Source: an uncultured Actinomycetes bacterium
GTDB taxonomy: Bacteria; Actinomycetota; Actinomycetes; Nanopelagicales; Nanopelagicaceae
Length of the DNA stretch: 64,000 nt
Direction of reading: 5' to 3'
Assembly (NCBI GenBank): GCA_903838295.1
Contig: CAILXX010000004.1
Span: 124,001-188,000 of the forward strand
The notes beneath the pieces are model-generated. The model was not told the origin of the DNA and made no database searches. It was given only the letters and a program-made list of their open reading frames with translations. How positions within the stretch are numbered: the first letter of the stretch is position 1; every line of letters begins with the position of its first letter. The translations under genes were made by a program, and so were the position numbers. Shown here in pieces: positions 6,548 through 64,000 of this stretch.

Positions 6548-9232
6548 GTGGCCGTACTAGATAAAATTCTTCGTGCTGGTGAGGGTCGTGCGGTTCGCAA
6601 CCTCGAAAAACTTGCGACCGAAGTTAATAGCTGGGAAGCCAAGATCCTTCCTCTCAGTGATGAAGATCTTCGTGGGCAGACTCAAAAGTTCCGCGATCGT
6701 TTAGCAAAAGGTGAAGATCTAGACGATCTACTTCCCGAAGCATTCGCAACCGTCCGTGAAGCAGCGAAGCGAACCCTTGGGCAACGTCACTATGACGTGC
6801 AGCTGATGGGTGGAGCAGCACTTCATCTGGGCAATATTGCAGAGATGCGCACCGGTGAAGGTAAGACATTGGTTTCAACACTTCCTGCCTATTTGAATGC
6901 GCTTGCCGGCGAAGGTGTTCACGTCGTCACTACAAATGATTATTTGGCTGAACGCGATAGTGAATGGATGGGACGCGTACACCGATTCCTTGGCCTCAAA
7001 GTTGGAGTGATTCTTGCATCTATGACTCCAGCAGAACGTCGTGAAGCATACGCCGCTGATATTACTTACGGTACAAATAACGAATTTGGTTTTGATTATC
7101 TGCGCGACAACATGGCTTGGTCATTAGAAGATTGCGTACAACGAGTTCATAACTTTGCGATCGTTGATGAAGTCGACTCGATTTTGATCGACGAAGCCCG
7201 TACACCGCTCATCATCAGCGGACCCGCAGATAAGGCCACCAAGTGGTACGTAGAATTCGCGAATATCTCTGGTCAGCTCTCTCGGGATCTCCATTACGAA
7301 ATTGATGAGAAGAAGAAGACTGTTGCGATCTTAGAAGAAGGTGTGACAAAGGTCGAACAAATATTGGGAATCGAAAACTTATACGAATCCGTTAATACCC
7401 CGATGATCGGCTACCTCAACAATGCAGTTCGCGCAAAAGAGTTATTTAAGCGCGATAAGGATTATGTAGTGATGAGTGGCGAACTCTTAATCGTGGATGA
7501 GCACACTGGACGTATGCTTTCTGGCCGTCGTTACTCAGAAGGGCTCCATCAAGCGCTTGAAGCCAAAGAACGTATCGAGATTAAAGACGAGAACCAGACG
7601 TTGGCGACGATCACGCTCCAGAACTATTTCCGCCTCTACAAGAAACTGTCAGGTATGACCGGAACTGCCATGACGGAAGCATCAGAATTTATGCAGATTT
7701 ATAAGTTGGGTGTAATTCCGATTCCAACTAATAAGCCAACTGCCCGTACAGATTCCGCTGATTTAATCTACAAAACGGAGGCAGCAAAATTTAAGGCTGT
7801 TGCTGATGATATTGCGGTACGTCATAAGGCTGGACAACCAGTTCTTGTTGGTACCGTTTCGGTTGAAAAATCTGAAGAGCTTTCACAAATTTTGACGCGT
7901 CAAGGAATCAAGCACGAAGTTCTCAACGCCAAGCAACACGAACGTGAAGCGGCTGTGATCGCACGGGCTGGTTCGATCGGGGCGGTTACCGTTGCTACCA
8001 ACATGGCTGGTCGCGGTACCGACATAATGCTTGGCGGTAATCCAGAATTTATGGCTGATTTAGAACTTCAACGTCGCGGATTAAATCCGGCTGATAATCC
8101 AGAAGAGTACGAAGCTGCTTGGCCCGCTGAACTAGCAAAGCAGAAGGCGGCGGTTGCGCTAGAACACGATACCGTCGTTGCCTCTGGTGGACTTTATGTT
8201 TTAGGCACCGAACGTCACGAATCACGTCGTATTGATAATCAGCTACGTGGTAGATCTGGTCGTCAAGGTGATCCAGGAGAATCGCGTTTCTATTTATCAT
8301 TGCAGGACGACCTCATGCGTCGATTCAATTCGGGGCTGGTCGAGCGCTTCTTAGGAGCAGCTGGAATTGCAGACGAAATTCCAATTGAATCAAAGATGGT
8401 CTCAAATGCGATTCGATCCGCGCAGACCCAGGTAGAAGCCCTCAACTTTGAGATGCGTAAAAATGTTCTCAAGTATGACGATGTCATGAATCGACAACGC
8501 GAAGTTATTTACTCAGAGCGCCGCGAAGTTCTAGAAGGTGCTGACATTAGCCAGCAAGTACAGACCTTTATGGATGACACCCTTCATGCATATGTTTCTG
8601 GAGCAACGAGTGAGGGTTATCCTGAAAACTGGGATCTGGAGACATTGTTTGTGGCTCTTAATGGGCTTTACCCCACTTCGATCTCGCCTGAATCATTAGA
8701 AAAAGAGGTTGGCGGCAAGGAAAATCTAGATGCTGATTTCGTCATGGACAAGGTCCTTGCCGATGCGCACTCACAATATTCTGCTCGCGAAGAGAGCCTT
8801 ACCGACGTTGTCATGCGCGAACTAGAGCGCAAGGTTTTGCTATCGGTTCTTGATAGAAAATGGCGCGAACATTTATACGAAATGGATTACCTGCAAGAGG
8901 GAATTGGACTTCGTGCAATGGCCCAACGTGATCCGCTTGTTGAATATCAACGCGAAGGTTATGACCTCTTTGCCGCAATGATGGATGCGATCAAAGAAGA
9001 ACTAGTTGGACTCCTTTTCCATGTTGAGGTCAATTTAGAAGAGGCTAACGGCGGTGTACCCGTTATTGCGACTCCTGGACTTGAGGCACCCGAATCTGCG
9101 GATACCAATCAACTTCGTTATACGGCAGCTGATGTTGACGGTGAAGTGGTTCAGAGCGGCGGAACTCCAAAGAACGCACCTTGCCCATGTGGTTCTGGCC
9201 GTAAGTACAAGCGCTGTCATGGCGCTGCGTAA
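6548..9232 (+). CDS. secA: preprotein translocase ATPase SecA
   Basis: Essential motor that drives unfolded preproteins through SecYEG. 894 residues, complete: Walker A MRTGEGKT at 100-107, DEAD-type box [14 protein letters not shown] near 206, the substrate-binding region, the second RecA fold with [17 protein letters not shown], and the helical wing/scaffold. It ends with the SEC-C zinc motif [13 protein letters not shown] (879-891), which binds SecB or ribosomes in other bacteria. GTG start at 6548. Convergent with ppc, only 16 bases apart. Confidence 0.97.
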
Positions 9233-11989: not shown

Positions 11990-14900
11990 ATGAGTGCATT
12001 GATAAAAGCATTTGCCCAGGTCGACCATGGCGCTGAAAATATGGCGGTCCCCAACTCTGCTGTGGGATTTTTGCTGGCTCAGAGGTCGCTCAATCAACCA
12101 CTTTTAGTCGTGACCGCGTCTTCGCGTCGTGCCAGTGAGATTATGGACGAACTAGAGACGTACTTGGGTAAAAACTGTGCGGTGGGGCTACCACCATGGG
12201 AAACACTGCCGCACGAAAAGTTGAGCCCAAAGAGTGACACTGTTGCGGCTCGTATAAAAGTTATTGCAGAATTAAATGAAGCGAAGATTGTCATTGCCTC
12301 AGTCCGGGCGCTGATTCAACCAATCGCGCCAATAGAAATCCCATTTCTCTCGCTCGAAATTGATTTAGAAGTACCCATGGAATTTTTGCTTTCTCATTTG
12401 GCACTCCTGGGATACAACCGCACAGATTTAGTCGAACGTCGCGGCGATTTTGCGGTACGTGGTGGAATCGTGGATATTTTCCTGCCCGATCAGGATCATC
12501 CGATCCGAGTAGATTTTTTTGGTGATCAAATCGAGGAGCTGGCTTGGTTTACCGTCGCCGACCAACGCACTTTTGAACCAGTAGTAGGCGGCATAACTAT
12601 CTATCCATGCCGCGAAATTTTATTGACAGATCAAGTAAAGAAGCGTGCTCGCTATTTAGCGGCAGAATTTCCGCAACTCACAGAGATGGTAAGCAAGTTA
12701 GCCGAAGGAATTTATGTTGATGGAATGGAATCACTCCAAGGCATGCTCCGTGAAGACCTTAATTCCCTCGTAGATTTGTTGCCTAGCAATTTTGAAATAG
12801 TTTTAATTGATCAGGCACGAATTAAATCTCGAGCACTAGATCTTGTCGAAACCAATAAAGAATTTCTTGAAGCTTCTTGGTCAAATGCTGCAATGGGCGG
12901 TAATGCCCCACAGACCTTAACTACTGAATTAAGTGGTGGCGGTTACTTTAATTTGGAAGAACTTCACGTAAAGGCAAATCGGTGGAGTTCTATCGACCCC
13001 TACGCAAGTGATGTAGAGGCGTTAGAAAACGGGCAGGAGTTCGACCTCCTGCCCGAATATCGTGGCAACACAGACCGGTTAACTACTGACCTGAAGAAAT
13101 GGTTAGCAGATGGTTACCTGTTGATCTTTACTGCTGCTGGACCCGGAATTGTTGAACGGTATGCAAAGTTGTTTCAAGAGGCTGGACTACCGGTGCGGTT
13201 GTTGAAAAGCGTGAGTTCTGGACTTACTCGCGATGCGGTTTATGTCTTACCAAGTCCCATAGAGCACGGTTTTGGCTTGCATGCACAGAAGAGCTTGCTC
13301 CTCACGGAGAAAGATGTCTCAGGCATCCGCAGTTCTAATAAAGATCAAGCCCGGATGCCATCTAGACGGAAAAAAGCCATCGACCCGCTTGAGTTAAAAC
13401 CGGGCGATTATGTTGTTCACGAACAACATGGAGTAGGGCGATACATCGAATTAGTGGCCCGCACAGTCAATAATATTTCACGTGAATATTTAGTGATCGA
13501 ATATGCATCCTCAAAACGTGGCCAACCTGCTGATCGACTCTTCGTCCCTACGGATACATTGGAACAAGTGACCAGGTATGTAGGCGGTGAAGCGCCCGCG
13601 GTAAATCGGATCGGTGGAGCTGATTGGCAGAACGCAAAGAAGCGTGCACGTAAAGCGGTCAAGCAAATTGCTGCTGAATTAATCCAGCTCTATGCAGCAC
13701 GCATGAGCGCCCCCGGGTACGCATTTTCGGCAGACACTCCATGGCAGCGGGAATTGGAGGCGGCTTTTCCTTATGTAGAAACCATTGATCAGCAATCGAC
13801 GATTGAAGAAGTGAAACGGGATATGGAACGTTCTCATCCGATGGACAGAATTGTGTGTGGGGATGTGGGTTATGGAAAGACAGAGATTGCAATTCGTGCA
13901 GCCTTTAAGGCAGTTCAAGATGCAAAACAGGTTGCTATTTTGGTCCCCACGACTTTGCTAGTGCAGCAACATTTTAAAACTTTTACCGAACGCTACGCTG
14001 GTTTTCCGCTGCGCTTGGCAGGGCTCTCTCGATTCAACACAGCTAAAGAGTCTAAGGAGATATTAGATGGGCTTGCCTCTGGATCAATCGACGTCGTTAT
14101 CGGTACCCATCGGTTGCTCTCCAAAGATGTCACATTTAGAGATTTAGGTTTAGTTATTGTCGATGAAGAACAACGCTTTGGAGTCGAACATAAAGAGGAG
14201 TTGAAGAAAGCCCGCACAAATATCGATGTTCTTTCGATGTCTGCTACACCGATCCCTCGTACCCTAGAAATGGCTATTACCGGAATCCGAGAAATGTCGA
14301 ACATAACTACCCCGCCAGAGGAGCGCCATCCGGTACTCACATATGTGGGGCCATATGATGAAAAGCAGGTTACTGCGGCCATTCATCGCGAGTTATTACG
14401 TGATGGTCAGATTTTCTTTATTCATAACCGTGTCGATAGTATTGATGGTGTTGTTGTTCGTCTCAAAGAACTCGTGCCAGAAGCTCGAATTCGTATTGCT
14501 CATGGCCAGATGGGTGAGCGCGAACTCGAAGAAGTAATCCTTGGCTTTTGGGAACGTGATTTCGATATCTTGGTCTGCACCACAATTATCGAAAGTGGAA
14601 TTGATATTCCAAACGCCAACACTTTAATTGTGGATCGGGCTGATGCATTTGGCCTTTCACAGTTGCATCAATTGCGTGGTCGGGTTGGTCGGGGACGTGA
14701 ACGTGCTTACTCGTACTTCTTATATTCTCCCGACAAACCATTATCGGAAGTCGCCCATGATCGATTGACGACAATTGCAATAAATACGGAGCTCGGATCT
14801 GGAATGCAGGTCGCACTCAAAGATCTAGAGATCAGGGGTGCAGGTAACCTTTTGGGTGGTGAACAATCTGGGCATATCGCCGAAGTCGGTTTTGATCTAT

Positions 14901-16057: not shown

Positions 16058-18021
<1,964 letters not shown>

Positions 18022-18039
18022 CCGCTAGTACGAGAAAAT

Positions 18040-18429
18040 ATGTTCAAGAGTATTTCCGGGCGGAGCTTAGCCTTCGCCACGGTGCTCTTAGTTCTCGCAA
18101 TTACTTTGGCACCTCCGACGCAACGCTATTTTGCTCAAAGCGCACAAATAAATTCTTATAAGGTTCAGATTGATAGTGCGAATCAAACTCTCAAAGCTGC
18201 CCAACAAGAATTATTGCAATGGAACGACCCTAAATACGTGGCATCACAAGCGAGAGTGAGATTGCATTATATTTTTCCAGGAGAGCGTCAATATGTTGTG
18301 GCCGGTGCAGCAACAACTACATCAATGCAATCAACACCTGCGGCCCCAGTTGCAAATCAGATTCCGGCCGGCCTACCTTGGTATCAAGAAGTTATTGCAT
18401 CCATCACTAGTACAAATGTGACGCCATGA
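18040..18429 (+). CDS. ftsB: FtsB/DivIC-type septum formation protein
   Basis: A 129-residue bitopic membrane protein. TM helix about residues 9-26, then a short coiled coil (QIDSANQTLKAAQQELLQW) and the family motif WNDPKYVASQARVRLHYIFPGERQYVV. It joins FtsL and FtsQ at the division site. The C-terminal tail is Ala/Thr/Pro-rich. Its position right after eno is the usual actinobacterial order. It overlaps the next gene by four bases. Confidence 0.88.
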   Translation: MFKSISGRSLAFATVLLVLAITLAPPTQRYFAQSAQINSYKVQIDSANQTLKAAQQELLQWNDPKYVASQARVRLHYIFPGERQYVVAGAATTTSMQSTPAAPVANQIPAGLPWYQEVIASITSTNVTP

Positions 18430-18917
18430 CAGATAAAGCCACACTCGCTGACCTTGAGGCAATCCATAATCAACTGGGACGCATTCCGCGCGATGTTCAT
18501 GCAATCGCACATCGCTGCCCCTGTGGCAAACCTGATGTCGTGCAAACTCCACCAAGATTATCTGACGGAACACCCTTCCCTACTTTTTATTACGCCACTT
18601 GCCCACGCCTAACCGGCGCAATATCTACGCTAGAAAGTTCTGGAATGATGGCGCAGATGCAGGATCGGCTTGCTATTGATCACGAACTTGCGGGTGAATA
18701 CCGTGCTGCTCATGATGATTATCTTGCCGCTCGAGCCGCGTTGGGTATCGACGTTCCAGAAGTAGCCGGGATTAGTGCTGGCGGAATGCCGGATCGGGTG
18801 AAGTGTCTGCATTCACTAATTGCACATTCGTTGGGGGCTGGACTAGGAGTTAATCCACTAGGGGATGAGGCACTTGCGGCTCTTCCAGATTGGTGGAAGG
18901 TAAATCCATGCGAGTAG
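18426..18917 (+). CDS. DUF501 family protein
   Basis: A 163-residue cytoplasmic protein of unknown function, conserved in actinobacteria between ftsB and ppx. Visible family features: LGRIPRDVHAIAHRCPCGKPDVVQTPPRL, a CPC plus later Cys (YATCPRL) that might bind metal, and the C-terminal GGMPDRVKCLHSLIAHSLG. ATGA overlap with ftsB suggests coupled translation; its end overlaps the next start by ten bases. Confidence 0.9.
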   Translation: MTDKATLADLEAIHNQLGRIPRDVHAIAHRCPCGKPDVVQTPPRLSDGTPFPTFYYATCPRLTGAISTLESSGMMAQMQDRLAIDHELAGEYRAAHDDYLAARAALGIDVPEVAGISAGGMPDRVKCLHSLIAHSLGAGLGVNPLGDEALAALPDWWKVNPCE

Positions 18918-19822
18918 CAGCGATCGACTGTGGCACGAATTCGCTCCGGCTTTTAATCGCAGATATTGATGGTAATTCTTTTCGGGAAGTTCATCGCGAT
19001 ATGCAAGTTGTCCGGTTGGGACAAGGTGTTGATCAAAACAAGGCATTTGCACCAGAGGCAATCGAACGTACATTAGCGATGACTCAGCAATACGCTTCAG
19101 TAATTCGAAGCAAAGGAGTAGAAAGACTCCGCTTCTGCGCAACAAGTGCGACCAGAGATGCCACAAACCGTGACCTCTTTATCGATGGGGTCCAAAAAAT
19201 TCTTGGTATAAAGCCAGAAGTTATTCCTGGGACCGAAGAAGCTGCTCTCTCGTTTATGGGCGCTACAAAAGAATTGGGGCAAGAGTTATCTCCGTTCTTA
19301 GTAGTTGATATCGGCGGGGGATCTACAGAATTTGTTTTGGGTGGAAGTGATGTTCAATCCGCAAAGTCGGTCAATATTGGCTGTGTGCGGATGTCCGAAC
19401 GACATTTGACTAGCCAGCCTCCGACACCCGCGCAAATTGCGGCAGCGACCATCGATATTGATGCAGCAATTATGGATGCGGGAATGACTGTACCTTTTAA
19501 AGATGCTCAAACATTGATTGCGGTCGCAGGCACAGCTACAACAGTTGCAGCAGCAGCACTTGAATTAGAAAGTTATGATCGTTATGCGATTCATCTTTCT
19601 AGAATTCCAGCGGAAAAAGTCCATGCAGTGGCCTCAATGTTTGCTGCAATGAGTCGCGAAGAGATCGCCGCGCTGGGGTACATGCACCCGGGTCGTGTAG
19701 ATGTAATTACTTCGGGCTCGCTTGTTCTCTCACGCGTGATGCATTTGACTGGTGCCACAGAATTTGTCGCCTCGGAATCAGATATCCTCGATGGAATAGC
19801 TTGGAACTTGGCGCGTGTTTAA
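18908..19822 (+). CDS. ppx: Ppx/GppA family exopolyphosphatase
   Basis: A 304-residue protein of the ASKHA fold that removes phosphate from polyphosphate or pppGpp. Phosphate-binding loops: AAIDCGTNSLRLLIADI at the start and VVDIGGGSTEFVLG near 143. The catalytic Glu of GTEEAALSFMGA is near 123. It lacks the C-terminal HD domain of the E. coli enzyme, as short actinobacterial forms do. The ATG at 18908 is preferred over a GTG at 18890 because it gives the canonical MRVAAIDCGTNS. Confidence 0.9.
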   Translation: MRVAAIDCGTNSLRLLIADIDGNSFREVHRDMQVVRLGQGVDQNKAFAPEAIERTLAMTQQYASVIRSKGVERLRFCATSATRDATNRDLFIDGVQKILGIKPEVIPGTEEAALSFMGATKELGQELSPFLVVDIGGGSTEFVLGGSDVQSAKSVNIGCVRMSERHLTSQPPTPAQIAAATIDIDAAIMDAGMTVPFKDAQTLIAVAGTATTVAAAALELESYDRYAIHLSRIPAEKVHAVASMFAAMSREEIAALGYMHPGRVDVITSGSLVLSRVMHLTGATEFVASESDILDGIAWNLARV

Positions 19823-20507
19823 GTCCATAGCGGCTCTTGATAAAGCGATCACTAGTTGTACCCTCTGCCCGCGTTTAGTTGAATGGCGTGAAGATGTCGC
19901 TTTAACAAAGCGGAAAGCGTATGCCGACCATACTTACTGGGGTAAACCAGTCACTGGCTTCGGGGATCCCAAGGCAGAGATCATCATTGTGGGGCTTGCT
20001 CCCGGAGCCCATGGCGCGAACCGGACAGGACGAATATTTACCGGGGATAGTTCTGGCGACTTCCTATTCTCCTCTTTACACCGATCTGGGCTAGCAAAAT
20101 TTCCGTTCAGTGAATCGCGTAGAGATGGACAAGAGCTGTATCGCACCAGGATTCTCTGCGCAGTCAGATGCGCACCACCCGATAACAAACCCAGCACCGA
20201 AGAGAAGGCGGCTTGTGCCCCGTTTATGGCCAATGAGATAGAACTCTTAATGCCAACGGCGAAGGTATTTATAGCTCTGGGTAACTTTGCCTGGACTGGT
20301 CTCTTCTCGCAATTACATAATATGGAGTTCGACATCCCAACACCACGTCCAAAATTCGGTCATGGAGTCTCGCTCACAATATCGTCGAATGAGGGAAAAA
20401 AAATTAAGATTATTGGGAGTTACCATCCCAGCCAGCAAAATACTTTTACGAAAAAGTTAACTCCATCGATGTTGGATGGCATCTTCAAGATGGCGAACAA
20501 GTCCTAA
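19815..20507 (+). CDS. udgB: family 5 uracil-DNA glycosylase (UdgB)
   Basis: Excises uracil, and in related enzymes hypoxanthine, from DNA. 230 residues. Motif A reads GLAPGAHGANRTGRIFTGD (60-78); Gly-Leu-Ala-Pro-Gly without a catalytic Asp or Asn is the family 5 hallmark. The C-terminal motif SYHPSQQNT has His204. Cysteines 15, 18, 119 and 134 can form the 4Fe-4S cluster. The GTG start overlaps the ppx stop. The 3' end overlaps the convergent yczE-like gene by 51 bases. Confidence 0.88.
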   Translation: MFKSIAALDKAITSCTLCPRLVEWREDVALTKRKAYADHTYWGKPVTGFGDPKAEIIIVGLAPGAHGANRTGRIFTGDSSGDFLFSSLHRSGLAKFPFSESRRDGQELYRTRILCAVRCAPPDNKPSTEEKAACAPFMANEIELLMPTAKVFIALGNFAWTGLFSQLHNMEFDIPTPRPKFGHGVSLTISSNEGKKIKIIGSYHPSQQNTFTKKLTPSMLDGIFKMANKS

Positions 20508-50785: not shown

Positions 50786-50852
50786 CTTTTGCACTGGTTT
50801 AGCTGCCATTTGATGCCTAGTAGACTCTGGCATCACGTTTTATCAATATAGC

Positions 50853-50928
50853 GCCCCGATAGCCCAATGGCAGAGGCAGAGGACTTAAAATCCTCCCAGT
50901 GTGGGTTCGACCCCCACTCGGGGCACCA
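50853..50928 (+). tRNA. tRNA with anticodon UAA (Leu) but a short class I variable loop
   Basis: Full cloverleaf: acceptor GCCCCGA/TCGGGGC, D stem GCC/GGC with GG in the loop, anticodon stem GAGGA/TCCTC with loop CTTAAAA (anticodon TAA at 50886-50888), variable loop CCAGT of only 5 bases, T arm GTGGG-TTCGACC-CCCAC, discriminator A and an encoded CCA (50926-50928). Bacterial tRNA-Leu is normally class II with a long variable arm, so the identity is unusual although A73 and the anticodon point to leucine (UUA codons). Confidence 0.85.
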
Positions 50929-62691: not shown

Positions 62692-64000
62692 TTAACCGAT
62701 TGCCTCGCCAGCCGCTTCCTTCATTGCTTGAGCATGTTGAGCGCCAGTCTTAAGTGGCGTCGCTTTGAGTGCCAACGCAACCAAGAACCCAATTGCAGTT
62801 ACTGGAGCAGCCGCATAGAAAATAACATGGAATGATTGCACGTAAGAATGGATCACAGTTGCCTGTAATTCTGGCGTGAACGCCTTCATCACAGCAGGAT
62901 TGTTCTTAAGTTGTGCGAATGCTTGAGGAGTTGCACCCGCTAGCGCTGCCGGATTAGTAGCAGCAAGATGTTTTACTCCACTTCCAATATAGGCGGTTAA
63001 CTTACTCGCATAGATTGATCCGAAAATCGCTACCCCAAGAGTTCCACCAATGGAGCGCCAGAAAGTATTGAGCGCTGTTCCGACACCCATATCTTTAACA
63101 TCCAGGGAGTTTTGCAAGGCGATGACCAAGTTCTGCAAGCAGAACCCAAGACCCATCCCTAGCATCGCTGCGAAGATTACGATGTGCCAATAAGGTGTGG
63201 TTTCACTCAGCGTGACCATCAAGAGTAGGGCAGCTGTCATCAAGACCATTCCAATTACTGGGAACATCTTATATTTGCCGTGCTTGGTGATCCACTTACC
63301 AGAGAAGATCGACATCGAAACGATTCCGAACATCAAGGGAAGAAGTTTTAGACCAGAAAGTGTTGCGGAATTGTGCTTAACCAATTGGAAGTACAAAGGC
63401 AACATAACTATGGCACCAAACATTGCGGCTCCCACAAGGAAACCGAGAAGAGAGGTGATGTTAAATGTGTGATTTTTGAATAGTCTTAACGGCAGAATTG
63501 GTTCTGTCGCTTTTGCCTGATTCCAAATAAAAATAGCGAACAAGAGCAGTCCTGCTCCGATCCAGATGAGCGTCTTAGTGGTTAACCAACCATTTTCAGG
63601 CGCATAAACCGAAATTCCCATGAGCAAAGCCGAGACTGCAACGATGAGCAGAAATGCGCCCAAGTAATCAATCTTGTGTTCGCGGCGTACTTTTGGAATA
63701 TGTAGGACAGCAGAGGTGATTACCAATGCAATGATTCCAAGCGGAAGGTTTAAGTAGAAGATCCAACGCCATCCAGTGATTCCCAAGACCTTGTTGTGAT
63801 CAGAGAAGAATCCGCCGAGAAGTGGCCCAGCAACAGTTGCAAGTCCCCATACAGCGCCAAAATAACCTTGGTAACGACCGCGCTCACGTGGCGAAACAAC
63901 ATCCCCGATAATTACGAATGTCAGCGACATCAAGCCGCCGGCACCTAAACCTTGAAGTGCACGGAATGCAATTAGCTGTGTCATATTGTGCGCAATACCC
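62692..64000 (-). CDS. MFS drug-efflux-type transporter, DHA2 family (N-terminus outside window)
   Basis: The frame is open to the right edge of the window, so the first ~70-80 residues are missing. The visible part has about eleven TM helices, begins inside MTQLIAFRALQGLGAGGLMSLTFVIIGDVVSPRERGRYQGYFGAVWGLATVAGPLLGG (motif A/B and motif C, GxxxGPxxGG), and is most like the 14-TM DHA2 H+-antiporters. Typical substrates are toxic organic cations; the real one is unknown. Confidence 0.85.
   Translation of the reverse strand, partial: GIAHNMTQLIAFRALQGLGAGGLMSLTFVIIGDVVSPRERGRYQGYFGAVWGLATVAGPLLGGFFSDHNKVLGITGWRWIFYLNLPLGIIALVITSAVLHIPKVRREHKIDYLGAFLLIVAVSALLMGISVYAPENGWLTTKTLIWIGAGLLLFAIFIWNQAKATEPILPLRLFKNHTFNITSLLGFLVGAAMFGAIVMLPLYFQLVKHNSATLSGLKLLPLMFGIVSMSIFSGKWITKHGKYKMFPVIGMVLMTAALLLMVTLSETTPYWHIVIFAAMLGMGLGFCLQNLVIALQNSLDVKDMGVGTALNTFWRSIGGTLGVAIFGSIYASKLTAYIGSGVKHLAATNPAALAGATPQAFAQLKNNPAVMKAFTPELQATVIHSYVQSFHVIFYAAAPVTAIGFLVALALKATPLKTGAQHAQAMKEAAGEAIG

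Follow-up and report, generated by a model that had tools for sequence, protein, structure and literature searches.

Cytosolic leucine tRNAs are described in reviews as carrying a long variable arm (PMC9976931). In the 64-kb window, the whole stretch of DNA analyzed here, a gene with the leucine anticodon UAA has a variable loop of only 5 nt. The first-pass annotation took it for a structurally odd leucine isoacceptor, additional to a normal class II gene elsewhere in the genome and possibly with a non-translational role. The question raised by this locus is whether the gene is such an extra, an artifact, or a tRNA for another amino acid, or whether it is the tRNA by which the cell reads UUA.

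RESULTS

A leucine-like tRNA gene with a class I body

ARAGORN made a single tRNA call in the window, tRNA-Leu(taa) on the forward strand, and the Rfam model RF00005 matched it over its full length (58.9 bits, E 3.5e-10). These programs, together with a direct reading of the letters, confirmed the UAA anticodon, the encoded CCA, and the 5-base variable loop (Table 1). The acceptor stem pairs GCCCCGA with TCGGGGC, the discriminator base is A73, and U33 is present. A variable loop of this length lies in the class I range of 4 to 5 nt, short of the arm of at least 10 nt that defines class II, and to that extent "structurally odd" was an apt description. The cloverleaf had also been called perfect; the full tRNA model is indeed matched, but the D stem consists of only three pairs and a C13.A22 mismatch. 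The fold is more stable than those of dinucleotide shuffles (z -3.0), and the single-sequence minimum misdraws the D arm. An Allo-tRNA, which has an 8/4 or 9/3 cloverleaf, was excluded by the 7+5 acceptor and T stems. Identical copies of the tRNA are present in two closed genomes, over 74 nt in IMCC26103 and 76 nt in G121, and assembly error is thereby excluded.

Table 1. Features of the tRNA-Leu(UAA) locus (window coordinates)
Feature	Position	Strand	Basis or remark
tRNA-Leu(UAA), class I architecture	50853..50928	+	ARAGORN, RF00005; genome's only tRNA-Leu(UAA)
D arm GCCC-AAUGGCAG-AGGC, leucine-type	50862..50877	+	
Anticodon UAA in loop CUUAAAA, with A36-A37-A38	50886..50888	+	
Variable loop CCAGU, 5 nt; A15-U48 is the Levitt pair	50896..50900	+	
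Encoded CCA of tRNA-Leu(UAA)	50926-50928	+	Read directly
TAGACT, -10-like box within AGTAGA(C/T)	50821..50826	+	Alignment of six loci
Uracil-DNA-glycosylase-like gene	19815-20507		

The D arm combines leucine-type features (A14, A15, G18G19, A20a, G21, and a 13.22 mismatch) with a C12-G23 pair, specific to class I, and C13.A22. The other class I tRNAs of this genome usually have four paired D-stem positions and A21; this one has C13.A22 and G21. The mismatch is in itself a leucine-tRNA trait, and the molecule as a whole is best described, from its sequence, as a class I framework fitted with a leucine-type D arm. Upstream of the gene, GTAGA is invariant in six aligned loci whose flanking sequence differs. 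The AGTAGA(C/T) motif with its TAGACT is probably the -10 box of the tRNA; a consensus promoter scan did not report TAGACT on the + strand.

The only tRNA-Leu(UAA) of the genome

The assembly that hosts the window comprises 1.46 Mb and is 99.3% complete. Rfam returned 45 tRNA matches, one of them weak, and ARAGORN analysis of all the fetched sequences left 44 distinct tRNAs. Exactly one of these is a tRNA-Leu(UAA), the window gene, and none is a class II tRNA-Leu(UAA). The tRNA-Leu(CAA) of the same genome is also class I, with the variable loop ACAGU, and the class II leucine tRNAs are those with anticodons CAG, GAG, and UAG only, which read CUN. As a guard against gaps in the host assembly, three single-contig genomes, G032, G121, and IMCC26103 (G348), were examined. 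Each has a class I Leu(UAA) and a class I Leu(CAA); the tRNA matches of at least 79 nt are Leu(UAG), Leu(GAG), Ser, and Tyr only, with no class II tRNA-Leu(UAA) among them.

The first-pass annotation had expected a class II tRNA-Leu(UAA) elsewhere and proposed a genome-wide search for it. That search, run with Rfam and ARAGORN, yielded none, either in the inventory of 44 or in the three closed relatives. With no second tRNA-Leu(UAA) in the genome, the window tRNA is the sole reader of UUA and not an additional gene. The annotation was right that UUA is common here: of the 1939 leucine codons in the window open reading frames, 310 are UUA and 408 are UUG, so that UUR accounts for 718 (37%). With a common codon to read, nothing points to a non-translational role. 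The class I architecture is unexpected for a leucine tRNA (PMC9976931, PMC4033280), and this spoke for an odd supplementary isoacceptor, possibly non-translational, but against the single gene and the 310 UUA codons we consider that reading very improbable.

UUA and UUG fall on leucine positions

Most other tRNAs have a class I body, and several of them share A73, features that would also suit a tRNA carrying another amino acid, either because UUA or all UUR codons had been reassigned or because another synthetase charged it. We examined codon meaning in one protein family, leucyl-tRNA synthetase (LeuRS), against six homologues from other genera, all actinobacterial, which encode most of the tested positions as CUN, read by canonical class II tRNAs. 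The UUA codons of this genome's LeuRS faced leucine in 87 of 102 aligned homologue cells, 75 of them CUN-encoded; UUG codons did so in 79 of 126 cells, and the CUN control in 138 of 204. UUA and UUG thus occupy leucine positions about as often as CUN, or oftener, which rules out reassignment of UUR, and by this alignment the window tRNA decodes leucine codons. A different amino acid is further opposed by the leucine-type D arm and by a sister-species pair elsewhere in the phylum that has a class II tRNA-Leu(UAA) at the same locus (see below); we give it hardly any credence. We take the window gene to be a working, structurally unusual leucine tRNA; it is neither an artifact nor an extra gene.

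Leucine identity elements and the synthetase

For E. coli LeuRS, A15-U48, G18G19, and A20a are essential and A73 is also relied on, the long arm is dispensable, and a truncated tRNA-Leu with no arm stays active (PMC9976931). The window tRNA carries the whole set known from E. coli (A73, A14, A15-U48, G18G19, and A20a). When the 44 tRNAs of the genome were parsed, the combination of A15-U48, N20-A20a-G21, a 13.A22 mismatch, and A73 occurred in the five leucine tRNAs only. Across 200 distinct tRNA-Leu(UUR) sequences compared, A73 was present in all 200 and A15-U48 in 197, with G15-C48 in two others. The genome encodes one complete LeuRS of the ordinary bacterial type, whose nearest solved structure is that of T. 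thermophilus, and a second or unusual LeuRS is thereby ruled out. Since the elements that LeuRS recognizes are the discriminator base and bases of the elbow, and not the arm, this enzyme would still accept the short tRNA, and we infer that it charges the window tRNA-Leu(UAA). In some families of the class, LeuRS open frames run to 971 to 1069 residues (G039, G044, G048, G054, and G055); these long frames are split at model position ~142, which suggests an insertion there.

Distribution of class I leucine tRNAs

Of 60 relatives searched by blastn, 46 have a relative of the window tRNA. When 84,980 species genomes were scanned, at least 117 stretches matched, and nearly all of these were confirmed by ARAGORN as class I tRNA-Leu(UAA or CAA). 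Those among the matches listed include Mycobacterium, Nocardia, Rhodococcus, Corynebacterium, Bifidobacterium, Streptomyces (CAA), and Microbacterium, as well as metagenome-assembled genomes labelled Planctomycetota, Rokubacteriota, Deltaproteobacteria, Acidobacteria, and Christensenellaceae. In a survey of the class, 73 of 128 near-complete genomes gave a UAA match and 55 did not. The variable loop measured 5 to 6 nt in 61 of the 73, 7 to 9 nt in 3, and at least 13 nt in 9, frequencies that are approximate because the survey patterns miss unusual T arms. Each genome had one form of the UAA tRNA only, class I or class II; an additional 39-base match in G108 was discarded since its sequence is not that of a tRNA-Leu. 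The surmise that the gene may be conserved in actinobacteria thus holds, and the comparison of orthologues that had been proposed along with it finds class I tRNA-Leu(UUR) widespread in Actinomycetota.

Both classes occur within at least six families (f14, f38, f40, f47, f49, and f78) and within two genera (g116 and g123). If these groups are natural, the class state has changed at least six times, a count based on family and genus labels. The CAA isoacceptor switches independently of UAA: in G149 and G167 the UAA tRNA is class I and the CAA tRNA class II, and in G085 and G096 the reverse is found. Class I leucine tRNAs for CUN (CAG, GAG, and UAG) were also seen at L132, L138, L150, and L362, in tRNA arrays, a phage, and an Acidobacteria contig; the short form is therefore not confined to UUR.

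Class switch at one locus and the coupled D stem

The sister-species pair mentioned above belongs to genus g123. Its class II gene (L274) and class I gene (L275) adjoin the same neighbor, whose open reading frames are 84% identical. The acceptor and T arms of the two tRNAs are identical, and the differences comprise the long arm, G9 versus A9, G12-C23 versus C12-G23, G13 versus C13, and a few bases in the D loop and in the anticodon stem, with hardly any further change. The class I and class II tRNAs of g116 follow the same pattern; no shared neighbor genes were found at those two loci. In family f47, too, the acceptor and T arms stay lineage-specific across the switch.

The D-stem difference is general. 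Among the 200 distinct tRNA-Leu(UUR), every one of the 162 class I sequences has C-G at 12-23, and 34 of the 35 class II sequences have G-C there; at 13.22 class I always has C.A, and most class II sequences have G.A. Part of this set was collected by a pattern that fixes G18, G19, A20a, G21, and A22 and leaves positions 9, 12, 13, 23, 48, and 73 free; at loci found without any D-arm pattern, all 42 class I tRNAs have C-G at 12-23 and 34 of the 35 class II tRNAs have G-C. Three tRNA-Leu(UAA) genes have variable loops of 7, 8, and 9 nt (L239, L240, and L310) on a class I D-stem core; they are possibly intermediates or regrown arms. We infer that the D-stem change reflects repacking of the core once the arm is gone, although part of it could stem from a single class I source, by descent or by recombination, instead of from independent adaptation.

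These comparisons lead us to a reading that we hold with high confidence: the window gene would be a working elongator tRNA-Leu, charged by LeuRS, that reads UUA and is descended from a class II tRNA. On the ribosome it would serve UUA and probably also UUG by wobble, with leucine attached by the cell's single ordinary LeuRS. Its ancestor would be a class II tRNA-Leu(UAA) that lost the long variable arm at its own locus, a loss that would require repacking of the core by a change of 12-23 from G-C to C-G, accompanied by C13.A22 in place of G13.A22 and, in most cases, A9 in place of G9. This switch has recurred in Actinomycetota; its route may be point mutation or recombination with class I tRNA genes, for example phage-borne ones. 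With less assurance, though we lean toward it, the same picture may extend to bacteria more widely: tRNA-Leu(UUR) would toggle recurrently between class II and class I, with coupled repacking of the D stem and an unchanged LeuRS, and many lineages would live with the short form.

Mobile elements and the tRNA-Leu(UAA) locus

In relatives, tRNA-Leu(UAA) lies behind mazG, eno, a Ppx/GppA gene, and a uracil-DNA-glycosylase-like gene (Ppx/GppA assigned by Pfam, the others named from sequence). In the window this block occupies 16058-20507, and about 30 kb of other DNA precedes the tRNA. The roughly 30 kb that follow 20507 are absent from the relatives' locus, and more unshared DNA lies downstream of the tRNA (window 20508-62691 overall), up to a gene at 62692-63984 that is common to L279 and L361. 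The variable region contains, immediately upstream of the tRNA, a rhodopsin gene (PF01036, 47335-48108) and a beta-carotene 15,15'-dioxygenase-like gene (PF15461, 49120-50085). In G155 (L359), a full tRNA (6840-6913) is accompanied, about 8 kb away, by a 49-nt 3' fragment (14770-14818); G002 (L360) has two full tRNA-Leu(UAA) copies (629-704 and 16666-16741), 16 kb apart. Integration at the 3' end of a tRNA typically leaves such a 3' fragment, and the duplications are of the kind that integrases produce. These arrangements mark the tRNA-Leu(UAA) locus as a hotspot for genomic islands in this family. An agmatinase neighbor was looked for in viral contigs and gave no match.

Such a hotspot is one of several observations consistent with another origin of the short form, by repeated replacement of, or partial recombination with, an old class I lineage maintained on phages and mobile elements. 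Phages that infect Acinetobacter, Pseudomonas, Prochlorococcus, Myxococcus, and Rhodococcus, as well as tRNA arrays (L118, L138, and L132), contain class I tRNA-Leu(UAA) built on the same core, and the core motif is nearly identical across phyla. Replacement of the whole gene is a poor fit in families f49 and f47, where the acceptor and T arms remain lineage-specific through the switch; partial gene conversion at the locus is possible. We regard this origin as a serious possibility but not as the probable one, and favor loss of the arm in place.

Comparison with known leucine tRNAs

The window tRNA shares with class II tRNA-Leu(UAA), such as E. coli leuZ, the anticodon, A73, A14, A15-U48, G18G19, A20a, and the 13.22 mismatch, but its variable loop has 5 nt against about 13 to 17, and it has C12-G23 and C13.A22 in place of G12-C23 and G13.A22. 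On a Rokubacteria contig, a class I tRNA-Leu follows tRNA-Gly(GCC) and tRNA-Cys(GCA), which we take to be the gene order of E. coli glyW-cysT-leuZ. The short tRNA-Leu(UAA) borne by phages, for example Pseudomonas phage ZC03 and Prochlorococcus phage P-SSM7, is likewise class I, with the core CCCAA/UCCAA...GGCAGAG and up to 86% identity over positions 8-66. The phage genes differ in their acceptor stems and are accessory, whereas the window tRNA is the sole chromosomal reader. Mammalian mitochondrial tRNA-Leu(UUR), recognized through A73 and A14 (PMC9976931), is also a UUR reader with no long variable arm; the window tRNA is, in contrast, stable, fully paired, and encoded on a bacterial chromosome, and homology beyond that of leucine tRNAs is not implied. 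Also in Actinomycetota, a mycobacterial tRNA cluster contains a tRNA-Leu(TAG) with a short variable loop (PMC6582537), but that tRNA reads CUA and is an extra copy beside a normal class II gene.

DISCUSSION

Published expectations still rest on the long arm. The V arm is counted among the major determinants for LeuRS in a 2026 paper (PMC13206607), and the variable region that one tRNA-seq tool assumes for bacterial tRNA-Leu is 13 to 22 nt long (PMC6297222). In M. tuberculosis, a long variable loop was noted "especially" in tRNA-Leu-2, 3, and 5 (PMC11541572), which implies that other leucine tRNAs of that species lack it, a point left uncommented there. In the open-access literature we found no paper that treats class I tRNA-Leu as a general feature of bacterial chromosomes, and the repeated class switch and its D-stem coupling appear to be undescribed in the open literature. 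Phage records already annotate their short genes as tRNA-Leu, so the novelty lies in recognizing the pattern and not in discovering the genes.

The long-arm rule fails for UUA and UUG in much of Actinomycetota, and Mycobacterium, Corynebacterium, and Bifidobacterium also carry short leucine tRNAs. Filters that presuppose a long arm, in annotation or in tRNA-seq, would misjudge them. Related class I and class II pairs at one locus constitute a natural experiment on the role of the arm in LeuRS recognition, rejection by SerRS, and tertiary folding. If the class toggle is real, it would overturn the class II rule for bacterial leucine tRNAs, and small-genome actinobacteria would read all of their UUR codons with the short form.
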